DNA of 64,000 nt from Burkholderia seminalis DSM 23518 (GTDB taxonomy: Bacteria; Pseudomonadota; Gammaproteobacteria; Burkholderiales; Burkholderiaceae). Position numbers and translations under genes: made by a program. The DNA is taken from contig NZ_CADFDK010000002.1 in assembly GCF_902832885.1 (NCBI RefSeq), positions 744,001 to 808,000 of the forward strand, written 5' to 3'. This document shows, one piece after another, positions 27,812-35,971 of this stretch; position 1 is the first letter of the stretch, and each line of letters opens with the position of its first letter. The notes below the pieces were generated by a model. It made no database searches. It saw nothing but the letters and a program-made list of their open reading frames with translations, and was not told where the DNA came from.

Positions 27812-28231
27812 ATGTCACAGCCCGCCTACGATTCGCATTCCGCCCCGCCGCAGGCCTCGGTCGCGCAGATGTCGGCGGCCGGCCTGCGTGCGTTTTTCAA
27901 CATCGCGCGCGACTGGGAACTGACGATCGACGAGCAGATCGTGCTGCTCGGATCGCCCGGCCGTTCGACGTTCTTCAAGTGGAAGGCCGCGCCGGAATCG
28001 GCGCGGCTGCCGCGCGACACGCTCGAGCGGCTGTCGCTGCTGCTCGGCATCTACAAGGCGCTGCAGATCCTGCTGCCGCAGCCCGCCGCGGCCGACGCAT
28101 GGGTCAAGCGGCCCAACGACGCGGCGCCGTTCGGCGGCAAGCGCGCACTCGACCGGATGCTCGCCGGCAACGTCGGCGATCTGGTCGCCGTCCGGCAATA
28201 TCTCGACGCGATGCGAGGTGGCTGGGCGTGA
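27812..28231 (+). CDS. Xre/MbcA/ParS-family antitoxin of a RES-type toxin-antitoxin system
   Basis: A 139-residue protein with the antitoxin layout of the RES-Xre systems. The N-terminal half has a Xre-like helical region (GLRAFFNIARDWELTIDEQIVLLGSPGRSTFFKWK), and the C-terminal half carries the toxin-binding MbcA/ParS part with LLGIYKALQILLP and AADAWVKRPNDAAPFGGKRALDRMLAG. It should bind and block the RES toxin and repress its own promoter. It ends by overlapping the toxin start as GTGA, so the two proteins are translationally coupled. Confidence 0.88.
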   Translation: MSQPAYDSHSAPPQASVAQMSAAGLRAFFNIARDWELTIDEQIVLLGSPGRSTFFKWKAAPESARLPRDTLERLSLLLGIYKALQILLPQPAAADAWVKRPNDAAPFGGKRALDRMLAGNVGDLVAVRQYLDAMRGGWA

Positions 28232-28929
28232 CGATGCCGATCGAGACACAACAATGGCCCACGACCACGGTCGACTGGGTGCCTGCCTACCGAGTCATCC
28301 CCACCCGTTTCCCGGCGATCAACCTGTTCGACCGCGTGGCATCGGCGGACGATTTCGACGCGCTGTACGCGCTCGAATCGCTGACCAACGACCGCATCCG
28401 CAACGAAATCGGCGCACTCGATCTCGTGCCGCCCGCCGAGCGCCGCTACGGGCTGGGCTGGGGGCCGATCATGGCCGCCTTCACGCACCTGAATCCGCAG
28501 GGCAGCCGCTTTTCCGACGGCAGCTACGGCGTGTTCTACTGCACCCGTTCACGCGATACGGCGATCGCCGAAACGCGCTACCACAGCGCGCTGTTCCTGG
28601 CCGCGACGAAGGAGCCGCCGATGCGCCAGCAGATGCGGCTCTACACGGTGATCGCGCAAGGCAGCGTGGTCGACGTGCGCACGTGGCCGCAGCGCGATCC
28701 GGCCTTGCTGCATCCGCTCGACTACGGCGCGGGGCAGGCGTTCGGCCGCGCGGTGCGCAACGCGGGCGGTGCGGGGATCGTCTATCCGTCGGTGCGCGAC
28801 CCGCGCGGCGAATGCCTGGCCGCGTTTCGCACCGCGCTGCTGCGCGATTGCCATCACGCGGCCTATCTCGAATACAACTGGAACGGCTCGGTTGTCGACG
28901 CGGTGTTCGAGCTGAACCAGGTCGGCTAG
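28228..28929 (+). CDS. RES-domain toxin (NAD-degrading type)
   Basis: A 233-residue RES-domain protein. The three namesake residues can be located: the Arg in AYRVIPTRF near residue 22, the Glu in IAETRYH near 112, and the Ser in IVYPSVRDPRG near 190. Family members such as MbcT and Res destroy NAD+ and stop growth when free of the antitoxin. I start at GTG 28228, which overlaps the antitoxin stop and has GAGGTGG 6 bp upstream; ATG 28234 is the alternative and costs two residues. The stop is followed by a short tandem repeat. Confidence 0.88.
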   Translation: MTMPIETQQWPTTTVDWVPAYRVIPTRFPAINLFDRVASADDFDALYALESLTNDRIRNEIGALDLVPPAERRYGLGWGPIMAAFTHLNPQGSRFSDGSYGVFYCTRSRDTAIAETRYHSALFLAATKEPPMRQQMRLYTVIAQGSVVDVRTWPQRDPALLHPLDYGAGQAFGRAVRNAGGAGIVYPSVRDPRGECLAAFRTALLRDCHHAAYLEYNWNGSVVDAVFELNQVG

Positions 28930-29722: not shown

Positions 29723-29859
29723 CCCCTCATCTTAGGCGCTCCTGCCCATCGCCACGTCACGAGGGAATGGCGATAATCGGGGCACGGCACCCGCCCGAGG
29801 CGCAACGGGCCGTCCCGCGCGCCGTTCGAATCCTTTCCATCCGCTTTCGGAATCACACG

Positions 29860-30513
29860 ATGACGCTTTATCCGCAGGTATTACGCAACCGGCCGCGCAT
29901 GGTCGCGGCATTCGTCGCAGGCGTGCTGTGCGCGGTGCTGCTGCCGTTTGCGCTGCGCCCGGCCGTGCGTGCGCTGATCGGCTGGGATTGCGCGATCTGG
30001 CTGTATCTCGTGCTGATGTGGGTGCGCATGGTCACCGCGCACCATCACAAGGTGCGCGAAGTTGCGATCCGCGAAGACGAAAACGCGACGACCGTGCTGA
30101 CCGTCGTGTGCTCCGCGACCGTCGCGAGCGTCGCCGCGATCGCGATCGAACTCGCCACGGCCAAGAGCGTGGGCTTCAGCGCGGGGCTCAGTCACTACGC
30201 GATCACGGCTGCGACGCTGTTCGGCGCGTGGTTCCTGATTCCGACGATCTTCACGCTGCACTACGCGCGGCTCTATTACGGTTCGCCGGGCAACGATCGC
30301 GCGCTGCGCTTTCCGGACCGCAACCCCGAGCCCGATTACTGGGATTTCCTGTATTTCGCGTTCACGATCGCGGTCGCGTCGCAAACGGCCGACGTGTCGC
30401 TCGCGAACCGTTCCGCGCGGCGCTCGGTGCTCGCGCAGTCGATCCTGTCGTTCTACTTCAACATGGCCGTGCTCGGGCTGTCGATCAACGTCGCGGCCGG
30501 CCTGCTGAGCTGA
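29860..30513 (+). CDS. DUF1345 family integral membrane protein
   Basis: A 217-residue membrane protein with about five to six hydrophobic segments: near residues 15-35, 40-55, 80-105, 110-135, and 190-215. The DUF1345 signature is visible in HYARLYY and [21 protein letters not shown]. No known enzyme motif or transport signature is present. It stands alone, converging with the glutathione S-transferase gene 6 bp further on. ATG 29860 fits the family start although the ribosome site is weak. Function unknown. Confidence 0.85.
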
Positions 30514-31981: not shown

Positions 31982-32288
31982 GGCGGGCTCCTGGGGTCGA
32001 GGGCGGACGACGGGTCCGCGAGCATGACATGGAGCGTAGGGGCGCGCGGCCCGCGCAACAAGGCGGGCAGACATTCCGGTATGCCGACTACCCGGCTTGC
32101 GGGCCCAGGCCCGCCAGCCCGTTTTCGCGGGGTCGATTCGCATTTAAAAATGTCCGATCAGCGTATATCGCGATGGCGAATCCGGCGCATACTCGGTGCT
32201 CTCCCCCCGCCTGGCCGTCGCATGCCGGGCCCCGATGCGCCGCGCCACGGGCGCGGCCATGCCGCTCGGCACGCACGAGGAGCGCATG

Positions 32289-33941
32289 ATGTCCGATTGT
32301 CCGCACGATCCGTACGCGCAGCACTACATTCATTGCTTGCCGTTTGGCGCCCAGCCCTGTGGCGCGCTCTGCGCGACACCGCGCACGCATTTCCGCGTGT
32401 GGGCGCCGGGCAGTACGCAGGTTCAACTCGAACTCGATTCCGGCTCCGACCCGACGCTCGTGCCGATGGCGGCCGCCGGCCCGCACTGGTTCGAGGTCTT
32501 CGCCGACTGCGGTGCGGGTACGCGTTACCGCTATCGCCTCGACGATGCCGTGTCGATTCCCGATCCCGCGTCGCGCTCGCAACCCGACGGGCTCAACGGC
32601 CCGAGCGAGGTCGTCGATCCGCGCGCGTTCACGTGGCGCAACACGTTCTGGCGCGGGCGTGCATGGGAAGACATCGCGCTCTACGCGATCCGGCCGCATG
32701 CGGTGGGCGGTTTCGACGGCGTGCGCCGCCGCCTGCCGCGGCTCGCGCGGCTCGGCGTGACCGCGCTGGAGCTGCTCGCGTCGCCGCACGACAGCCTGCC
32801 GTTCGCGCCGCTCGCGGCCGAAGGCGGCCCCGACGCGCTGAAGGCGCTGATCGACGACGCGCACGGCTACGGGCTCGCGGTGCTGCTGGAACTCGACTAC
32901 GCGCGCTTCGGCAGCGGCACCGATGCGCTGCGCCACTACGCTGCGCCGTTCTTCCATACGCGCGACGATCCGCTGCAGGCCGCGCCGCTGGCGCTCGATC
33001 ATCCGGAAGTCTGCGATTTCTTCTGCGACAACGCGCTGTACTGGATCGACGAATACCGTTGCGACGGGCTGCGCCTGCGCGAGGCCGACCGGATCGGCGT
33101 GTCGTGGCTGCGCGAGATCGCGGACCGCGTGCGCGCGGCCGTGCCGGCCGACCGGCTCATCCATCTCGTGCTCGGCAGCGAGCGGCATCCCGCGCACCTC
33201 GCCGATACCCATTTCGATGCGCAGTGGAACGGCTGCGGCGAACGCGCGCTGCACCGTCTGACGGGGCGCGATACGTCGGCCCACGAAGGCATTTCCGCGC
33301 GCCAGTCGATCCACACGCTCGCGCGTGCGCTGACCGCGGCCGGCGCGGCGTTCCAGCCGGCCGCGTCGGGAGAGGGCATCGCGGCCGACAGCGGGCTGGC
33401 GCTGACGTCGCTCGTGCTGTCCGATGGGGCGTGGCGCGACGGCGGCCCGGGCGACCCCGCGCAGGCGTCCGGCCTCGCGGCGCTCGCGCTGTCGCTGCTC
33501 ACGCCGCAGATTCCGCTGATCTTCGATGAAACCGCGCGCGACGCCGATCGTGCGCATGTCGTGCAGTCGGCGCTCGCGGTGCGCGCGAAGCTGATCGCGC
33601 CGCGGTTGTCCGATTGCCGGCCGCAGGATGCGCATGCGCTGAAGGCGGACGGCGACGGCGATGCCGACGCGCTGCTCGCGTCGTGGCGGCTCGCCGACGA
33701 CGAGACGCTGACGATCGCATTGAACCTGTCGCCCGACGCGGTGCGGTTCCACGCGCCGCGAGGGCGCGTCGTGTTCGAGACGCCGGCACGTGCGCGCGAC
33801 CGCGTCGATGAAGGGGAATTGCCGCCATATTCGCTCGTTGCGTGGCTCACGGGCGACGTCAACCACTATGCGCTGACGCACGACGCGCGGCGTATCGACG
33901 ACGGTTCGTGGCGCGGCATGCGTCCGAACCTGAACGCATGA
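32289..33941 (+). CDS. TreZ-like GH13 protein without catalytic residues (probable pseudoenzyme)
   Basis: A 550-residue protein laid out like malto-oligosyltrehalose trehalohydrolase: an N-terminal E-set domain (about 30-110, FRVWAPGSTQVQLEL), a TIM-barrel-like middle and a small C-terminal domain ending in ELPPYSLVAWL. The catalytic motifs are all altered. Region I, normally DVVYNH, reads ELDYAR (201-206). Region II, normally DGLRLDA, reads DGLRLREA, so the nucleophile Asp is R264. The acid/base motif, normally LVAED, reads LVLGS, so the Glu is G296. The QWNDD segment reads QWNGC (312-316). It is therefore unlikely to hydrolyse glycosides. No treY, treS or glg gene is adjacent. A binding or regulatory role for alpha-glucans is possible. 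Start 32289 is set by AGGAG. Confidence 0.8.
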   Translation: MSDCPHDPYAQHYIHCLPFGAQPCGALCATPRTHFRVWAPGSTQVQLELDSGSDPTLVPMAAAGPHWFEVFADCGAGTRYRYRLDDAVSIPDPASRSQPDGLNGPSEVVDPRAFTWRNTFWRGRAWEDIALYAIRPHAVGGFDGVRRRLPRLARLGVTALELLASPHDSLPFAPLAAEGGPDALKALIDDAHGYGLAVLLELDYARFGSGTDALRHYAAPFFHTRDDPLQAAPLALDHPEVCDFFCDNALYWIDEYRCDGLRLREADRIGVSWLREIADRVRAAVPADRLIHLVLGSERHPAHLADTHFDAQWNGCGERALHRLTGRDTSAHEGISARQSIHTLARALTAAGAAFQPAASGEGIAADSGLALTSLVLSDGAWRDGGPGDPAQASGLAALALSLLTPQIPLIFDETARDADRAHVVQSALAVRAKLIAPRLSDCRPQDAHALKADGDGDADALLASWRLADDETLTIALNLSPDAVRFHAPRGRVVFETPARARDRVDEGELPPYSLVAWLTGDVNHYALTHDARRIDDGSWRGMRPNLNA

Positions 33942-34011: not shown

Positions 34012-34605
34012 TTACCAGAACCCGCGAATGCCCGCGATGCCGTAGGCGCCGTGGCGGCGCGCGTCGTCGAGATGCGCGCGCGTCATCCCGCCGAGCGCGA
34101 AAACGGGCATCGTGGCCTGCGCGGCCAGCGCATCGAACCGCGCCCAGCCGAGCGTTGCCGCGCCGGGGTGGCTGAGCGTCGGCAACACCGGCGACAGCGT
34201 GACGAAATCCGCGCCGATGCGGGCGGCCAGCAGCAGATCGTCGAGCGTGTGACAGGCGGCGGACACCCGCCGCTCGGCCGGCAACGGACGCTGCGCGGCG
34301 GCGCGCAACGCGGTGCCGTCGAGATGCCAGCCGGCGCCGTCGAGCCGCATCACGCCGGCTGCATCGATCGGCCCGTTGAGCATCAGCTGCGCGCCGGCCG
34401 CGTCGCAGCGCGCGAGCGCCGCGGCGGCGAGTGGCGCGAACGCGGCCGCATCGAGCGACTTCACGCGCAGTTGCACGAGCGTTTCGCCGCGCGCGAGCAC
34501 GGCCGACAGCCGGTCGAGGAACGCCGCGCAATCGGCCGCCGACGCGGACGCCGGTTCCGGCGTGATCACGCAGCAGCGCGGCAGCGGCGCGGCCGTGCCG
34601 TTCAT
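34012..34605 (-). CDS. Thiamine-phosphate-synthase-like (TenI/ThiE fold) protein
   Basis: A 197-residue TIM-barrel protein of the ThiE/TenI group. The phosphate-binding segments GADFVTLSPVLPTLSHPG and PVFALGGM are present, but the metal-binding motif normally read as N-D-R and the following GVHLGQ are changed to LNGPID and GWHLDG. The sequence resembles the TMP-synthase-like domain usually fused behind a MutT (Nudix) domain, here encoded alone. It may therefore not be a working thiamine phosphate synthase. ATG 34605 is used; an ATG at 34617 adds four residues. It ends a minus-strand group behind the CNNM gene, 22 bp downstream. Confidence 0.78.
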   Translation of the reverse strand: MNGTAAPLPRCCVITPEPASASAADCAAFLDRLSAVLARGETLVQLRVKSLDAAAFAPLAAAALARCDAAGAQLMLNGPIDAAGVMRLDGAGWHLDGTALRAAAQRPLPAERRVSAACHTLDDLLLAARIGADFVTLSPVLPTLSHPGAATLGWARFDALAAQATMPVFALGGMTRAHLDDARRHGAYGIAGIRGFW

Positions 34606-34627
34606 CGCGTGCGGCACTGTAGGGCCG

Positions 34628-35971
34628 TCATTCGTCGGCCTCTTTCGCGACCTTCGGATAGACGCGCACGAGCACGATGCGCGGCCCGTTCATCTTCTTC
34701 ACGACCACGTCGAAGCGGTCGAACGACACGCGTTGCCCTTCGGTCGGCAGGTCGCTCAACGCCTGGATCACGAGGCCGCCGACCGATTCCGCGCGGCCTT
34801 CGTCGATATCGATGCCGAGCGCCTGCTCGAGCGACACGACGGGCAGGCTGCCCTTGCCCATCAGCGTGCCGTCGTCGAGGCGGCTCCAGTCGGCATCGCC
34901 CTGGCGGAACTCGTCGTGGATCTGGCCGACCAGCGCGCCGAGCAGGTTGTCGAGCGTCAGGAAGCCGATCGGCTTCTCGCCCTTGTTGCCGACCAGCGCG
35001 AAGTGCGGCGCGCCCTTGCGGAAGCGGCGGAACAGGTCGAGCGCCGGCGTGTCGGGCCGCACGTACTGCACGGGGCGCACGTAGTCGGACAGGTCTTCGA
35101 GCGCGGCGCCGGCATGACGCGCGAGCAGCAGGTCCTTCAGGTGGATCAGCCCGCTCACCTGTTCGCGCGACGCATCCTCGAACAGCGGATAGCGGCTGAA
35201 GCGGTGCCGCGCGACGATCTCCATGTTGTCGGGCAACGGCAGGTCGCGCCGCAGGCCGATCATTTCATGGGCCGGCCGCATCAGGTCCGACACGGTCATC
35301 GACGAGAAATCGAGCGAATGCGCGAGCGTGTTCCACTCGTCGTCGCTGTACGTGCCGCGCGCCGGTTGGGCGGCATTGCCGGCCGTGCTGCGGCGGCTGC
35401 GCAGGATCAGCTTCAGCTCGTCGGTCGAGTAGTGCGCGTCGCTGCCGTGGTCGGCCGACAGCCCGGCGAGCCGCAGCACCGCGTTGGCGCTGGAGTTGAG
35501 CACCCAGATCGCCGGATACATCGCCCAGTAGAACGCATACAGCGGCAGCGCGACCCACAGGCCGACCTTCTCGGACTGGCGGATCGCCATCGATTTCGGC
35601 GCAAGCTCGCCGACGACGATATGCAGGAACGAGATCAGCGAGAACGCGAATATCAGCGAGATCAGGTGCACGACGCGTTCGGACTGCACGCCGATCAGGT
35701 CGAGCACCGGGGCGAGCAGTTGCGCGAACGCCGGTTCGCCGACCCAGCCGAGGCCGAGCGACGCGAGCGTGATGCCGAGCTGGCACGCGGAGAGGTACGC
35801 GTCGAGGCGGCCGTGCACGATGCCGAGGATGCGCCCGCGCAGGCCGTGCTTGCGGGCCAGTGTCTTGACGCGCGTGGCGCGCAGTTTGACGAGGCCGAAT
35901 TCAGCCGCGACGAAGAACCCGTTGAGGGCCACCAGGAACAACGCGCCGATGAGCGCGAAGATCTGTAACAA
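34628..35971 (-). CDS. CNNM/HlyC-CorC family transporter-like protein
   Basis: A 447-residue protein with the usual three-part plan. The DUF21 (CNNM) membrane domain fills residues 1-190, with helices such as LIGALFLVALNGFFVAAEFGLV and the signature ACQLGITLASLGLGWVGEPAF. A CBS pair lies around 215-335 (FSRYPLFEDASREQVSGLIHLKDLLL is typical), and the CorC_HlyC C-terminal domain covers about 350-440. Such proteins are linked to magnesium or cobalt efflux; the old name hemolysin is misleading. It is an inner-membrane protein. Probably transcribed with the TMP-synthase-like gene. Confidence 0.9.
   Translation of the reverse strand: MLQIFALIGALFLVALNGFFVAAEFGLVKLRATRVKTLARKHGLRGRILGIVHGRLDAYLSACQLGITLASLGLGWVGEPAFAQLLAPVLDLIGVQSERVVHLISLIFAFSLISFLHIVVGELAPKSMAIRQSEKVGLWVALPLYAFYWAMYPAIWVLNSSANAVLRLAGLSADHGSDAHYSTDELKLILRSRRSTAGNAAQPARGTYSDDEWNTLAHSLDFSSMTVSDLMRPAHEMIGLRRDLPLPDNMEIVARHRFSRYPLFEDASREQVSGLIHLKDLLLARHAGAALEDLSDYVRPVQYVRPDTPALDLFRRFRKGAPHFALVGNKGEKPIGFLTLDNLLGALVGQIHDEFRQGDADWSRLDDGTLMGKGSLPVVSLEQALGIDIDEGRAESVGGLVIQALSDLPTEGQRVSFDRFDVVVKKMNGPRIVLVRVYPKVAKEADE

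Follow-up and report, generated by a model that had tools for sequence, protein, structure and literature searches.

A TreZ-like protein lacking the GH13 catalytic residues is retained under purifying selection across Burkholderia

The closest known system to the protein described here is TreZ (malto-oligosyltrehalose trehalohydrolase, GH13_10, TIGR02402), represented in the Protein Data Bank (PDB) by 2bhu, 1eh9 and 3m07, the last deposited as a putative alpha amylase. Proteins of the GH13 fold also occur in non-hydrolytic roles. Plant isoamylase ISA2 has a CBM48–GH13 make-up and is catalytically inactive, and the SLC3 heavy chains rBAT and 4F2hc are membrane-anchored animal proteins that serve as chaperones or partners rather than as glycosidases. 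Here we describe psTreZ, the name used for the apparently catalytically dead TreZ-like protein encoded at positions 32289–33941 of a 64,000-nucleotide stretch of Burkholderia seminalis DSM 23518 (the window; contig NZ_CADFDK010000002.1, positions 744,001–808,000).

In contrast to TreZ, psTreZ lacks the nucleophile, the acid/base, the Asn-His pair of region I and the whole of region IV, its cleft loops are deleted, and it reaches 220.4 bits against the TreZ profile TIGR02402, far under the equivalog cut-off of 538.8. It shares the GH13 fold with the SLC3 heavy chains, but derives from a bacterial TreZ. psTreZ resembles ISA2 in being a GH13 member which has kept the fold, lost catalysis and is nevertheless retained; however, ISA2 works in complex with ISA1, whereas psTreZ is kept in 26 of 65 Burkholderia genomes without any PF00128 match (threshold E <= 0.001). 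We consider it moderately probable that psTreZ is a genus-specific, non-hydrolytic pseudoenzyme, in which the former catalytic centre has turned into a charged site, invariant across orthologues, that binds a ligand or partner.

Domain structure and loss of the catalytic apparatus

The psTreZ reading frame is open over 32196–33941 on the plus strand. It contains two ATG codons, at 32286 and 32289, and the intact frame of 550 codons reported in the preliminary description of this DNA is obtained when counting from the second. The features of the gene and protein are as follows.

32289..33941, plus strand: psTreZ, 550 residues, stop codon inside the coordinates; TreZ-like (GH13_10)
32277..32282, plus strand: GAGGAG, ribosome-binding-like, 6 nucleotides ahead of the second ATG; read from the sequence
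32340..32546, plus strand: CBM48 domain, residues 18–86; Pfam PF02922, 29.7 bits against a cut-off of 22.4
32679..33524, plus strand: degenerate GH13 (beta/alpha)8 barrel, residues 131–412; AlphaFold2 model with eight strands, predicted local distance difference test (pLDDT) 84, predicted template modelling score (pTM) 0.88
32901..32906, plus strand: region I, Ala205-Arg206 replacing Asn-His, from the alignment with active TreZ
33078..33080, plus strand: region II nucleophile position, Arg264; Arg in 65 of 65 psTreZ versus Asp in 70 of 70 active TreZ
33174..33176, plus strand: region III acid/base position, Gly296; Gly in 65 of 65 psTreZ versus Glu in 70 of 70 active TreZ
33419..33420, plus strand: junction after residue 377 where region IV (FLQNHDQiGNR of active TreZ) is missing, from the alignment
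33570..33842, plus strand: DUF3459 C-terminal domain, residues 428–518; PF11941, 45.3 bits against a cut-off of 22

The order CBM48, barrel, DUF3459 is that of the TreZ fold and agrees with descent from GH13_10. The top PDB match is 3m07 (E 1.7e-51), followed by chains named trehalohydrolase (E 7.2e-27 to 1.3e-26), and the structural matches, taken as the best 50 in each of two listings, comprise GH13 glycosidases and transferases only. A scan for promoters and terminators found none.

The catalytic positions were compared in an alignment of 65 psTreZ and 70 active TreZ, the latter consisting of 25 proteins from Burkholderia (drawn from the 35 genomes with an over-cut-off match), 29 from sister genera and 16 from further members of the family, with "active" meaning that the catalytic residues are present, as judged by sequence. 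The fold markers DGLRL, QWN and ALYWIDEY are present in psTreZ as claimed earlier, and the alignment bears out the preliminary assignment of a TreZ-like protein that has Arg264, Gly296 and Ala-Arg in place of the nucleophile, the acid/base and Asn-His. At the positions of Asn205 and His206 of the active enzymes, psTreZ carries Ala in 64 sequences and Ser in one, followed by Arg in all 65. Arg264 aligns with residue 252 of PDB chain 3vgd, which is titled D252E. The residues are replaced at all sites as had been stated, but the loss extends to deleted loops and to region IV, which had been missed.

Missing from the window protein are, among others, the dFpGrNWGY loop, all of region IV and, near beta8, three pieces that together make up about 43 residues. 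Among the 141 columns that are at least 97% conserved in the active enzymes and in which a psTreZ residue is aligned, the psTreZ consensus departs from them in 53, and 42 more columns, conserved at 90% or above among active TreZ, have no counterpart in the window protein. Aromatic and loop positions conserved in active TreZ are lost as well. psTreZ falls outside active TreZ by the Asp/Glu pair, the Asn-His of region I, the His-Asp of region IV and the equivalog score. Its cleft is dismantled, beyond point changes, and because the nucleophile, the acid/base and region IV are absent, psTreZ should not hydrolyse glycosides. psTreZ belongs by descent to the TreZ lineage of GH13_10, but its defining residues are not those of a TreZ.

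Conservation and selection across the genus

A psTreZ orthologue is present in all 65 Burkholderia genomes, at 72–97% identity. The frames to the first stop span 538–557 residues in 64 of them, and the 65th (L115) continues through unknown bases. In genome G059 a TGA lies inside the reported match, and the frame to the first stop is 544 residues. The ratio of nonsynonymous to synonymous substitution rates (dN/dS) was calculated by the Nei–Gojobori method for 300 pairs from the 25 genomes from which both psTreZ and active TreZ were extracted. For the 117 pairs with a psTreZ dS up to 0.4, it is 0.164 for psTreZ versus 0.254 for active TreZ, and in the next bins it is 0.21 versus 0.348 (175 pairs) and 0.293 versus 0.382 (8 pairs). 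Constraint on psTreZ is no weaker than on the active enzyme from these genomes. Of the 92 rows in a tree, 22 are psTreZ, and these form one side of a branch whose stem measures 1.11 changes per column, with much shorter inner branches, a shape that indicates a burst of change on the psTreZ stem, then constraint.

A check against true TreZ, suggested in the preliminary description, shows that the replacements Arg264 and Gly296 are invariant in psTreZ, and orthologues with catalytic residues, which would have spoken against a pseudoenzyme, are found in none of the 65 Burkholderia genomes and only in sister genera, at apparently the same locus. The catalytic columns were inspected in 45 non-Burkholderia proteins (29 sister and 16 further). 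Searches beyond the genus covered 398 genomes of the family, Burkholderia included, and 399 of the order; among the matches listed outside Burkholderia the best identity to psTreZ is 53% (family) and 50% (order), which is the level of active TreZ. The frame is under purifying selection across species while its catalytic residues are lost, and the proposal of a selected pseudoenzyme is well supported by its presence in 65 of 65 genomes, the invariant replacements and a dN/dS lower than that of active TreZ. An antisense open reading frame (ORF) is called opposite psTreZ.

32088-33881, antisense to psTreZ: ORF opposite psTreZ, a mechanical ORF call

The former catalytic centre

Of all classes of positions, conservation is highest in the barrel strands, which have a mean identity of 0.954 among 18 divergent orthologues. 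The formerly catalytic segments after beta3, beta4 and beta5 (DYARFG, READRI and GSERHP) are at least 95% conserved in every column, and the segments after beta1, beta2, beta7 and beta8 are more variable. D203, R206, R262, R264, D267, R268, G296, E298, R299, N314 and E318 are each invariant in 65 of 65 orthologues. The replacements at the former centre are fixed, but fixation is not unusually high among the switched columns at large.

The apparent ancestral treZ locus

Two genes of the window serve as landmarks of the ancestral treZ locus.

29767..30513, plus strand: DUF1345 gene, upstream landmark
34628..35971, minus strand: CNNM/CorC-type gene, downstream landmark

Within the flanks that were fetched, 8 of the 29 sister loci have the CNNM gene of the window (73–84% identical) near active treZ. 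DUF1345 is also present in two of the 29, and locus L153 has both landmarks. The sister locus of Paraburkholderia metrosideri (L070), the only one annotated throughout, has treZ behind treS, glgB and glgX and ahead of malQ and treY. An N-terminal stretch of the approximate form MSxxPxDPxAxxYxxCLPFGAQ is common to sister TreZ and psTreZ in the rows shown, and differs in the nine Burkholderia active TreZ shown. In the tree, a group of all 29 sister rows, the 22 psTreZ and one further member receives a Shimodaira–Hasegawa-like approximate likelihood ratio test (SH-aLRT) value of 98. psTreZ groups with TreZ and sits at the apparent ancestral treZ locus; synteny, shared N-terminus and tree together favour reading it as the ancestral treZ, which stayed behind when the rest of its operon went.

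The active TreZ of the B. seminalis genome maps to contig C3, where TreY and further GH13 matches lie nearby, and psTreZ is on another contig. The upstream methyltransferase and glutathione S-transferase (GST) neighbours were considered as a conserved operon partner and rejected. Because the neighbours vary across the genus and both adjoining genes lie on the opposite strand, linkage points to no partner of psTreZ. The window also carries, at 27979–28929 on the plus strand, a conserved frame of 316 residues with no NCBIfam match; of the 35 loci L088–L122, 30 have a match to it near psTreZ. On the minus strand, 34012–34617 encodes a lone thiamine-phosphate-synthase-like domain, which in NCBIfam best matches positions 127–313 of NF006530, the C-terminal part of a Nudix fusion protein.

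The active enzymes of Burkholderia have at least two origins. Two of them (L141 and L142, from genomes G062 and G010) group with the TreZ of another genus (L170 and L174), and the remaining 23 of the 25 make up a separate clade. In locus L129 (genome G014), active treZ reads in frame into a MalQ-like protein, 1044 residues to the end of the fetched stretch, possibly a TreZ–MalQ fusion.

INDEPENDENCE from the pathway

A separate active TreZ over the TIGR02402 cut-off occurs in 35 of the 65 genomes and TreY in 34, while 27 show no TreY match and no TIGR02402 match except psTreZ. PF00128 is matched in 39 genomes, six times in B. seminalis, and in none of the remaining 26, of which 25 are at least 94% complete and one (G057) is 82% complete; a 27th genome (G056) has a single weak match. 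OtsA is over its cut-off in 65 of 65 genomes. Glycogen phosphorylase is matched in six (one match being weak), none of them among the 26 without PF00128. In a large share of this big-genome genus, no GH13 metabolism is detectable by PF00128. In genome G011 (C3:881827-884564) TreY matches in two pieces, profile positions 1–177 and 188–837, which would fit a broken or split frame.

Selection on psTreZ shows no consistent difference between genomes with and without PF00128, and dependence on GH13 partners was rejected on this basis. For nearest pairs, dN/dS is 0.141 where both genomes lack PF00128 (9 pairs) versus 0.13 where both have it (25 pairs), and the binned medians without versus with PF00128 are 0.136/0.122, 0.132/0.154, 0.175/0.168 and 0.289/0.346. 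Since the 26 genomes without PF00128 show equally strong selection, psTreZ seems to function independently of any GH13 partner and of GH13-based alpha-glucan metabolism. An obligatory active GH13 partner in the same genome, of the ISA2 kind, is absent from these 26 genomes and is thereby excluded. The preliminary description had suggested an inhibitor of a trehalose enzyme, which as a general role towards GH13 enzymes does not survive the equal selection in the 26 genomes. Its other suggestion, an alpha-glucan sensor, is weakened by the GH13-free genomes and the rarity of glycogen phosphorylase (6 of 65), and sensing of imported glucan or of trehalose itself would still be compatible.

Discussion

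On the reading we favour, psTreZ would descend vertically from the treZ of an ancestral trehalose/glycogen operon, as synteny and tree support. In the Burkholderia ancestor the remaining operon genes may have left the locus while treZ stayed, and a burst of change would then have removed the catalytic residues and cleft loops. Strong purifying selection followed genus-wide, as conservation and dN/dS indicate, with the three-domain TreZ fold predicted to be kept. The former centre has become an invariant, charge-rich edge after strands beta3–beta6. This edge may bind either a partner protein or a small ligand, probably an anionic one, and psTreZ would then act as a non-catalytic sensor or scaffold that does not need the alpha-glucan pathway.

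Several observations weigh against this account. The CNNM gene was not seen in the fetched flanks of 21 of the 29 sister loci; because these flanks often stop within the operon, the 21 are neither counter-examples nor support. A Burkholderia-specific duplicate of active TreZ is disfavoured by tree and synteny, though a tree that joins psTreZ to 23 Burkholderia active TreZ survives the approximately unbiased (AU) test (p-AU 0.189). The dN/dS comparison uses genome pairs that are not independent of one another, and it includes, among the 25 active treZ, two of separate origin that somewhat raise the active dN/dS. Selection in the GH13-free genomes could be partly older than their loss of GH13 genes. 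In the barrel, six-residue runs with 95% conservation or more are not unusual (62 of 322 windows), C-face loops are overall no more conserved than N-face loops (0.86 versus 0.895), and the fraction of switched columns at least 97% conserved (22 of 53, 0.415) is close to that of the remaining columns (177 of 409, 0.433). Salt bridges among the invariant charged residues could do no more than pack the emptied barrel, and neither a ligand or partner nor any expression or phenotype was found for psTreZ.

The main rival to a non-hydrolytic binding protein is a neofunctionalised enzyme, in which new invariant acidic and basic residues would form a catalytic site for a non-glycosidic reaction. By sequence and predicted secondary structure, the new invariant D203, D267, E318, R206, R264 and R268 lie after the C-terminal ends of beta3–beta6, and selection on psTreZ is as strict as for an enzyme; however, no known catalytic motif was recognised, the listed structural matches are the GH13 glycosidases and transferases given above, and we regard this rival as unlikely. 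Less probable again is a sensor or inhibitor tied to the alpha-glucan/GH13 trehalose pathway, which would bind glucan or a GH13 partner in the manner of plant ISA2. Retention of the CBM48 domain and overall fold, the six PF00128 matches of its own genome and the precedent of plant ISA2 would suit such a role, but selection is no weaker in the 26 genomes without PF00128, the gene is unlinked to the active treZ cluster, and psTreZ has lost aromatic and loop positions that active TreZ conserves.

A role as regulator of the OtsA–OtsB trehalose route or of a trehalase, for example by binding trehalose-6-phosphate, is a little more doubtful still. The new arginines R206, R264 and R268 would suit an anionic sugar and OtsA accompanies psTreZ in every genome, but the universal presence of both genes is not specific, and no linkage was seen; of this route, the genome searches covered OtsA. 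Bolder, and a long shot, is the proposal that psTreZ has become a core, non-hydrolytic regulator of the genus, whose former active site is now an arginine-rich pocket that reads a phosphorylated sugar (e.g. trehalose-6-phosphate) and passes information on sugar or stress status to a different system. The loss of all catalytic residues and the long stem branch might suggest a pseudogene or relic in decay, but its presence in 65 of 65 genomes, the frame lengths, low dN/dS and invariant replacement residues make this extremely improbable, and the last three rule decay out unless another constraint on this DNA, such as the antisense ORF, accounts for them.

Going by titles and abstract openings, no report of an inactive TreZ in Burkholderia was found among the open-access papers searched, and the available passages of PMC11046441 contain nothing on one. 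The TreY–TreZ pathway is mentioned for B. stabilis (PMC4974330), where only a treZ gene is reported, which could be either the active form or psTreZ. The treZ primers of PMC12654293 fit two active treZ loci, L126 and L128, without a mismatch, whereas no psTreZ locus is matched even when four mismatches are allowed. psTreZ could be taken for treZ in reconstructions of Burkholderia trehalose pathways.

psTreZ offers a clean natural case of enzyme death on one stem branch, then long selective retention. Useful controls exist in the active relative of sister genera, at apparently the same locus, and in the active cousin present in 35 of the 65 same genomes. In the 26 genomes without PF00128, psTreZ is the sole alpha-amylase-family protein detected, and with it the question of what job a pseudoenzyme holds after its pathway is lost becomes testable.
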